NCBI GenBank assembly: GCA_020833055.1
Contig: JAJHQZ010000002.1
Coordinates: forward strand, 124,001 to 188,000
Direction: 5' to 3'
Length of the DNA: 64,000 nt
Source of the DNA: Candidatus Korarchaeum sp.
GTDB taxonomy: Archaea; Korarchaeota; Korarchaeia; Korarchaeales; Korarchaeaceae
Shown: piece by piece, positions 23,633-25,006 of the stretch
How the letters are laid out: every line of letters starts with the position of its first letter
Position numbering within the stretch: position 1 is the first letter of the stretch
Notes under the pieces: generated by a model
Seen by the model: the letters and a program-made list of their open reading frames with translations, nothing else
Told to the model about the DNA's origin: nothing
Database searches by the model: none
Translations under genes and position numbers: made by a program

Positions 23633-24262
23633 GTGCCGAACGAGAGGGTTTTCAGATCAGATCTGAGGAAACTGGCCTCGAGATTAGAGGAGAAAGGGAT
23701 TGTTCCAAGCGGTAGGCTGGATCCCCTCATAAATAAGCTCTCCGATCTTCATAAGAGGGGATTAGTCAAGATAAATCATTCAGCTATGGAAATAGTGATT
23801 GCAGCTCATTTCATTTCAAAGGGATATGAGGTGGACGTTGAGGTCCCAATAAATGATCTGAAATGTGATCTTCTATGTTTAAATGATATTAAGGTGATAA
23901 TTGAGGTAGAAACTGGTTACGTTCCGCCTGAGCACGCTCTAGATCCCGATAACTTCTGCAGAGCTAGAATTGCGAGCAAGATAGCTAGGTACAGCATTCA
24001 CTCTGACAGGTTTTATTTAGCGGCTCCGCCCACATACCTAATGGAGATACCGACCTTCGTCCTACTGCCCCCCGATGAGAGGAATGAGGATGAGTTGATT
24101 AAGTGGAAATCGCTCCTGGATTCTTACTACACTAACCCCCCGATACCTCTGGAGATGTTGAGGATTTGCAAGCTCAATGGGATACTCATAACTTCTGTTG
24201 ATGATGGTAGGGTAACTGAATTGGGCCCATCCACATATCTGAGGCTCCTAAAGGGGATATGA
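23633..24262 (+). CDS. Protein with PD-(D/E)XK nuclease-like core, function unknown
   Basis: 209 residues from GTG 23633. An N-terminal helical domain (about 1-55) could bind nucleic acid. It is followed by EIVIAAHFISKGYEVDVEVPI, then CDLLCLN and VIIEVETGY. The order helix, strand, Asp, turn, strand with Glu-Val-Glu matches the PD-(D/E)XK nuclease core; the lysine after the acidic pair is replaced by Thr-Gly, so activity is uncertain. A C-terminal alpha/beta part is unlike anything I know. It diverges from pyk across 50 bases and ends two bases before the cloverleaf element. Confidence 0.55.
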   Translation: MPNERVFRSDLRKLASRLEEKGIVPSGRLDPLINKLSDLHKRGLVKINHSAMEIVIAAHFISKGYEVDVEVPINDLKCDLLCLNDIKVIIEVETGYVPPEHALDPDNFCRARIASKIARYSIHSDRFYLAAPPTYLMEIPTFVLLPPDERNEDELIKWKSLLDSYYTNPPIPLEMLRICKLNGILITSVDDGRVTELGPSTYLRLLKGI

Positions 24263-24353
24263 GGGGCTTTCGGGGGTTCCCGTGGAAACGGGAATCAGCC
24301 ACTCCTTGGAGCGCTGGTTTCAGAGGTCTCTCTGATCCCCCTCTCCCGGCCCC
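24263..24353 (+). ncRNA. Candidate structured RNA, four-way junction
   Basis: The convergent intergenic stretch folds into a cloverleaf. The closing helix is GGGGC (24263-24267) with GCCCC (24349-24353). After an internal loop, GGGGG (24272-24276) pairs with CCCCC (24337-24341). The three arms are TTCCCGT/ACGGGAA with loop GGAA (24277-24294); CAGC-CTC/GAG-GCTG with loop CTTG (24296-24316); and TCAGAG/CTCTGA with loop GTCT (24320-24335). On the plus strand two loops are GNRA and CUUG types, which favour that strand as the RNA. It lacks tRNA loops and no known class fits. A DNA-level repeat is the alternative. Confidence 0.55.
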
Positions 24354-24388
24354 AGTTAGCGTGAAGCACTGCCTAATAAACTTTCCCA

Positions 24389-25006
24389 TCAACTCAGCCT
24401 AGAGATGAGGACTTCCCTATTGAACTGATTTTGAATTTCCGTTCCCATCTTGATGATCTGGGGTCCGATGGATGAGAGGAGCCATGAGCCCTCTATCTGA
24501 GCTATCTTAGGCATTGACTCATGCCCCATGCGACTAAGAGCTTTAAGCGAGGATGTAGTTAGTACCTGCTCCCTCCTGAGGCCTAACCATATCTCCACCG
24601 CCTCCTCTACAGCATTCATGAGCTTTTCGGTCGGCCTCCCGATTGCGATTCCGGGGCATCTTGGATCTAAGTATATGTAGAATGTCCCCAGCTTACTGGA
24701 GAAAGCCGCTTCCTCCCTCCTCCCATATTCCGGGTTTTTGAAGATGTAGAATGGCCAGAGCTTGCATGCCCTCGGTTTCATACCGAGCATCTGCAGATAG
24801 CAGAGGTGGGAGCTCAGGAGGAAGGGGCAGCTCCTACCTTCCTTCCTCAGGAAGAACCTGTCCTTCCTGATCTCTACGTAATACCTCCCTAATTTCCTAG
24901 ATATCTCTAGGGCTTCATTGGGTCTCAGGGGCACCGAGAAGTGAGAGCAGCAGATCCCGCATGCATTACACTCGAAGGAATGGATGTAGCTCCACGGGAG
25001 GTACAT
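24389..25006 (-). CDS. YkgJ-type cysteine cluster (CxxCxxCC) protein
   Basis: 205 residues. The YkgJ family signature C-x2-C-x2-CC is at the N-terminus (CNACGICC, residues 13-20), followed by RSCPFL, CYLQ and PRACKLWPF and a late RCPGIAIG. These conserved cysteines bind zinc or an Fe-S cluster in relatives; the cellular role is not known. A GGAGG just upstream of the ATG supports the start. It converges with the plus-strand gene across the cloverleaf element. Confidence 0.8.
   Translation of the reverse strand: MYLPWSYIHSFECNACGICCSHFSVPLRPNEALEISRKLGRYYVEIRKDRFFLRKEGRSCPFLLSSHLCYLQMLGMKPRACKLWPFYIFKNPEYGRREEAAFSSKLGTFYIYLDPRCPGIAIGRPTEKLMNAVEEAVEIWLGLRREQVLTTSSLKALSRMGHESMPKIAQIEGSWLLSSIGPQIIKMGTEIQNQFNREVLISRLS

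Follow-up and report, generated by a model that had tools for sequence, protein, structure and literature searches.

A structured element between convergent genes

We analyzed a stretch of 64,000 nucleotides from a genome of Candidatus Korarchaeum sp. (the window). Positions 24263-24353 of the window lie between two convergent open reading frames: a 209-amino-acid ORF on the plus strand (23633-24262), whose 3' end abuts the element, and a 205-amino-acid ORF on the minus strand (24389-25006), which encodes a CxxCxxCC-domain protein (PF03692). An earlier reading of the letters by a model (the sequence-only reading) had proposed that this intergenic region holds a new structured RNA whose paired helices close a four-way junction. 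We confirmed the location, the helices, and the four-way-junction fold. The plus strand folds as described, with a minimum free energy of -44.3 kcal/mol (z = -2.19; 4 of 200 shuffles were as good), and the fold of the minus strand is slightly better (-45.3 kcal/mol, z = -3.23, 1 of 200 shuffles as good). For this copy, fold energy alone is only modestly above chance, so the claim that the pairing is well beyond chance does not hold on energy. It does hold through comparison, because the element is conserved, with compensatory changes, in 13 genomes. The element occurs once in the window's genome, and nothing suggests that it is a dispersed DNA repeat. The predicted features are listed in Table 1.

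Table 1. Predicted features of the RNA and its promoter, in window coordinates
Feature	Positions	Strand	Basis or remark
ncRNA	24263-24353	-	Predicted start at or near 24353 (GGGGCC...), reaching at least 24263 (...GCCCC); ends predicted from conservation and promoter spacing; homologues with compensatory changes in 13 genomes
BRE/TATA promoter, GGGAAAGTTTATTA	24374-24387	-	Core kept in 13/13 genomes; matrix rank 37 of 127,976
P1a 5' strand, GGGGC	24349-24353	-	Pairs with 24263-24267; folds and group A alignment
Purine-rich conserved element, 5' side, CGGGAGA	24342-24348	-	CGGGANA in 13/13 homologues
P1b 5' strand, GGGGG	24337-24341	-	Pairs with 24272-24276; folds and alignment
P2 hairpin, UCAGAG-AGAC-CUCUGA	24320-24335	-	One compensatory pair and G-U variants
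P3 hairpin, CCAGC-GCUC-CAAG-GAGU-G-GCUG	24296-24317	-	Two-sided changes in all four inner pairs
P4 hairpin, UUCCCGU-UUCC-ACGGGAA	24277-24294	-	One compensatory pair (UA/UG/CG)
P1b 3' strand (CCCCC) and purine element, 3' side (GAAA)	24268-24276	-	CCCGAAA in 13/13
P1a 3' strand, GCCCC	24263-24267	-	Alignment

The protein encoded by the 209-amino-acid ORF was found in 15 of the 60 other relatives that we searched, mostly in the same genus (and also in G025 and G031). It had no match in Pfam or NCBIfam and no credible match in the PDB. By eye, the stretch CDLL...IIEVETGY is vaguely like the core of a PD-(D/E)XK nuclease.

Homologues and covariation

When we searched 61 genomes at the DNA level, four other members of the genus gave strong matches (G010, 96% identity; G011, 82%; G005, 80%; and G012, 76%). 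By reading the 3' neighborhood of the flanking genes, we found longer versions in another eight genomes (G001, G003, G004, G007, G008, G009, G014, and G015). The homologues form two size classes: about 91-94 nt in five genomes, including the window's, and about 115-122 nt in eight genomes. Overall, 13 of the 16 genomes of the genus carry the RNA, with one copy each; these 13 homologues all come from a single genus, and several are nearly identical. The RNA is absent from G002, G006, and G013. G013 is only 70% complete, but G002 and G006 are nearly complete, so the RNA is not indispensable across the genus. In a tree of the CxxCxxCC protein, in which several of the inner branches are poorly supported, the five short-form genomes form one clade (support of 100/99) with the long-form genomes around it, so a single origin of the short form is probable. 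G006 sits among the long-form genomes, which suggests that it lost the RNA.

What the homologues share in sequence is the upstream box (discussed below) and a core that reads 5' CGGGARAGG ... CCCCGAAA 3' (G005 has CGGGATAGG). A search for the exact pattern recovers 12 of the 13 homologues and misses G005, because of a T in its core. The sequence-only reading had suggested that a covariance model be used to search related archaea, and the element came through such searches well. A model built from the long forms only (R2) picks up the short forms of G011, G005, G012, and G010 (four of five), with E-values, which refer to the loci searched, of 2e-6 to 4e-3. Another model, built without the copies from the window's genome and from G010, finds both of these genome-wide (E = 5e-8 and 1.7e-8, respectively).

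Outside the genus, we examined 13 more genomes of the phylum, and none of them had a credible covariance-model match. There were weak matches in other genera, and by eye, none of them combines the CGGGANAGG...CCCGAAA core with the promoter. When we scanned GTDB contigs with the short-form core, the only record that matched was that of G005. Plasmids had no match to the element. The bare core pattern is present at 41 loci of viral contigs; we attribute the best viral match to the model (L201, E = 0.0011 after pre-selection) to chance, as it lies inside a 356-amino-acid frame of a phage-like contig and its fold disagrees.

Compensatory changes point to a structured RNA under selection. For the eight long forms (alignment A6), 39 pairs are paired in 97.7% of cells, and 13 of these pairs show changes on both sides; none of 500 shuffles reached this value, and slid controls were at most 57% paired. 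A6 was fitted to the model; without such fitting, a MAFFT alignment (A3) still shows 8 pairs with two-sided changes (0 of 500 shuffles). Among the five short forms, which we aligned by hand, the inner pairs of P3 all change on both sides (4/4), as does one pair each in P2 and P4. In the short forms, P1 varies at its outermost pair only, so covariation does not test P1 there.

P1 can be read in two ways. In the first, GGGGC/GCCCC and GGGGG/CCCCC helices surround a CGGGAGA/GAAA internal loop, and this is favored in the short forms. In the second, CGGG/CCCG helices carry A-rich bulges on opposite strands (in the window, the CGGG of the 5' purine-rich element can pair with CCCG at 24271-24274), and this is favored by the folds of the long forms. 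These pairs are invariant, so covariation does not discriminate between the two registers. In two long forms, the counts of G and C in P1 shift together (GGG goes with six C there, against GGGG with seven C elsewhere); G008 is an exception. A kink-turn in P1 is possible and would need a non-standard A-A pair.

In most long members, GNRA loops on the RNA strand cap two of the arms (GAGA/GAAA on one and GGGA/GGAA/GUGA on the other). By eye, GGAGU and AUUCC, which flank arm 1 in the long forms, could pair around an internal loop resembling AGUA/GAA, in competition with the base of arm 2. In several long members, a T-rich tract directly follows P1 (GCAATTTTC, GCGATTTTT); the short form has no clear terminator.

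Strand and promoter

The sequence-only reading had placed the RNA on the plus strand. We assign it to the minus strand on three independent grounds, namely its promoter, the asymmetry of wobble pairs, and the fold energies, all of which point to minus as the functional strand. Upstream of the RNA in this sense, a box of the form AARG-Y/T-TTATTA is found in 13/13 genomes and ends 24-27 nt before the C of CGGG. Its majority identity is 0.93, versus 0.51 upstream of the box and 0.56 downstream of it. The TATA box of archaeal promoters is centered near -27, so given the position of the box, transcription would be expected to begin roughly where P1 does, at its first bases. We also scored the window with a promoter matrix that was trained only on the regions upstream of the tRNA, RNase P, and SRP genes of the window's genome. 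This ranks the site 37th of 127,976 window positions, at a distance of 18 nt from the first base of the RNA (20-31 nt for the control genes). On the plus side, nothing scores comparably (best score of 2.3, versus 8.9 for the minus-strand site). Having its own promoter at a conserved spacing in 13/13 genomes, together with the matrix rank, suggests that the RNA is an independent transcription unit.

A G-U pair in the RNA sense is an A-C mismatch on the other strand, so the two strands can be compared by counting these cells. In the minus sense, G-U cells outnumber A-C cells by 45 to 1 in the long forms and by 9 to 2 in the short forms (54 to 3 overall). Two long members have z-scores of -6.0 and -6.7 on the RNA strand, versus -3.3 and -4.1 on the opposite strand. 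The z-scores also favor the RNA strand in G003, G005, and G011, while in G012 the strands are about equal. With the RNA on the minus strand, the argument from stable plus-strand tetraloops fails for the window's copy: the plus-strand loops include GGAA and CUUG, and the same loops read UUCC, CAAG, and AGAC on the minus strand. That the element is a new structured RNA is supported by the covariation, the single copy, and the lack of an Rfam match (see below). Very probably, the minus strand encodes a structured RNA that is transcribed on its own or is processed to an equivalent form. Since the stop codon of the upstream gene, which is on the same strand, lies near the promoter, transcripts of that gene might also read through into the RNA.

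Comparison with known RNAs and alternative explanations

No Rfam 15 family reached its gathering score for the window or for six loci with long and short homologues. Weaker matches (to mir-1892, mir-H20, and others) were far below the cut-offs and we consider them to be due to chance. The element is not a divergent RNase P or SRP RNA, which agrees with the sequence-only reading: both are found elsewhere in the window's genome (RF00373 at G000:C11:18968-19254, 173.6 bits; RF01857 at G000:C3:96657-96967, 176.8 bits), and neither model matches the element. Nor does it seem to be a tRNA, as that reading also held; ARAGORN called none in the window. We found no Rfam guide-RNA family at its gathering score and, by eye, no C/D or ACA boxes.

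Still, there are similarities to these RNAs. The BRE/TATA resembles the promoters of the tRNA, RNase P, and SRP genes in the same genome. Like archaeal RNase P RNA, the element would be a stand-alone structured RNA, but at about a third of the size; archaeal SRP RNA is another stand-alone RNA under a TATA promoter. The element also shares with tRNAs a cloverleaf-like four-way junction and a length of roughly 90 nt. Unlike a tRNA, it lacks a T-loop and an anticodon loop, its hairpin loops have four bases, and its basal stem holds an extra purine element.

Further counterparts are the orphan stand-alone ncRNA motifs from comparative genomics, which, like the element, are lineage-restricted, covarying, trans-acting by location, and without a known role. 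The 104 motifs of Weinberg et al. 2010 (PMC2864571) are an example, and the main text of that paper does not mention Korarchaeota. In the open-access literature on korarchaeal noncoding RNA, we found no description of the element, nor of any orphan RNA, regulatory or structural, from Korarchaeota.

Because it matches no Rfam family, is not a tRNA, is distinct from the genome's RNase P and SRP RNAs, and is not described in that literature, we read the element as new and restricted to the genus: probably a stand-alone ncRNA gene on the minus strand. Its BRE/TATA would drive an RNA that starts with the basal stem P1, at about 24353, and folds into a four-way junction of P1 and three hairpins. Selection would keep the base pairs while the letters and the lengths of the arms drift (91 to 122 nt in total). 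The letters that stay strictly constant belong to the purine-rich bulges and the pairs of P1 (5' CGGGARA / 3' CCCGAAA), not to a loop or an open guide, so P1 is the probable binding site for a protein or a target RNA. The arms would be stabilizing spokes, and the RNA might act in trans, with a small ribonucleoprotein assembled around it as the core. We propose this scaffold role tentatively, because of where the sequence is conserved and because the RNA has no conserved guide that is unpaired. More speculatively, the family might represent an undescribed class of trans-acting archaeal RNA in one korarchaeal genus, forming the core of a ribonucleoprotein or acting as a catalyst via a basal stem with tandem purine bulges. 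Korarchaeota are a deep archaeal lineage, and this would be a covarying RNA gene with a predicted strand, promoter, and boundaries. Fast-changing arms around a frozen stem would also make it a good model for the evolution of orphan ncRNAs.

Of the alternatives, the one that fares best is that the element belongs to the mRNA of the CxxCxxCC-domain gene upstream, as a structured 3' UTR or as a termination or stability element. In every homologue that we examined, the RNA lies downstream of this gene and on the same strand, and it stays there even where the other neighbor changes. However, a conserved BRE/TATA lies between the gene and the RNA, and a 3' UTR needs no promoter. Also, G006 and G002 retain the gene without the RNA. 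We consider this explanation to be unlikely.

An antisense RNA that controls the convergent 209-amino-acid gene is considerably less probable. The RNA's 3' side does point into the 3' end of that gene, both in the window and in three of the four other short-form genomes. But in G005, the RNA adjoins a purA-like gene and the 209-amino-acid gene is on another contig, and in G001, other small ORFs lie between the two. From these arrangements, the RNA appears to be independent of this neighbor. Furthermore, the conserved part of the RNA does not overlap coding sequence in the window.

We give similarly little weight to an unlisted class of riboswitch or self-cleaving ribozyme. A junction RNA whose purine-rich internal element is invariant might suggest one, but many of the constant bases are paired and no ribozyme or riboswitch model in Rfam matches even at E = 10. 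Furthermore, the window has no same-strand downstream gene that is placed for regulation, as the 3' neighbor is convergent.

A plus-strand RNA (either the 3' end of the 209-amino-acid gene's mRNA or an independent transcript) would fit the plus-strand fold, but given the wobble counts, the lack of a promoter-like site, and the weaker z-scores in most members, it is very improbable. Just as improbable is a DNA element such as a cruciform, a recombination site, or a mobile repeat: the inverted repeats exist on both strands, but there is one copy per genome, no flanking direct repeats of note, no plasmid or credible viral match, and a bias of G-U pairs and GNRA loops towards one strand that a DNA element would not be expected to have.

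Some other features of the neighborhood vary across the genus. The small ORFs between the RNA and the 209-amino-acid gene in G001 (L081:2231-2949) resemble, by eye, an antitoxin of the VapBC type and a toxin with a PIN domain; similar ORFs are present in G008, G009, and G015, and are absent at that place in the window's genome. G006 keeps both flanking genes without the RNA, and its 209-amino-acid gene (G006:C128:4411-5030) seems to be broken, as it matches in two pieces, one of which has an in-frame TAG. In G005 (L073:1771-5056), the RNA and the purA-like gene are followed by ORFs that are, by eye, pyrF-, pyrE-, and pyrB-like. In the window, unlike G005, the pyr-like genes are on the far side of pyruvate kinase.
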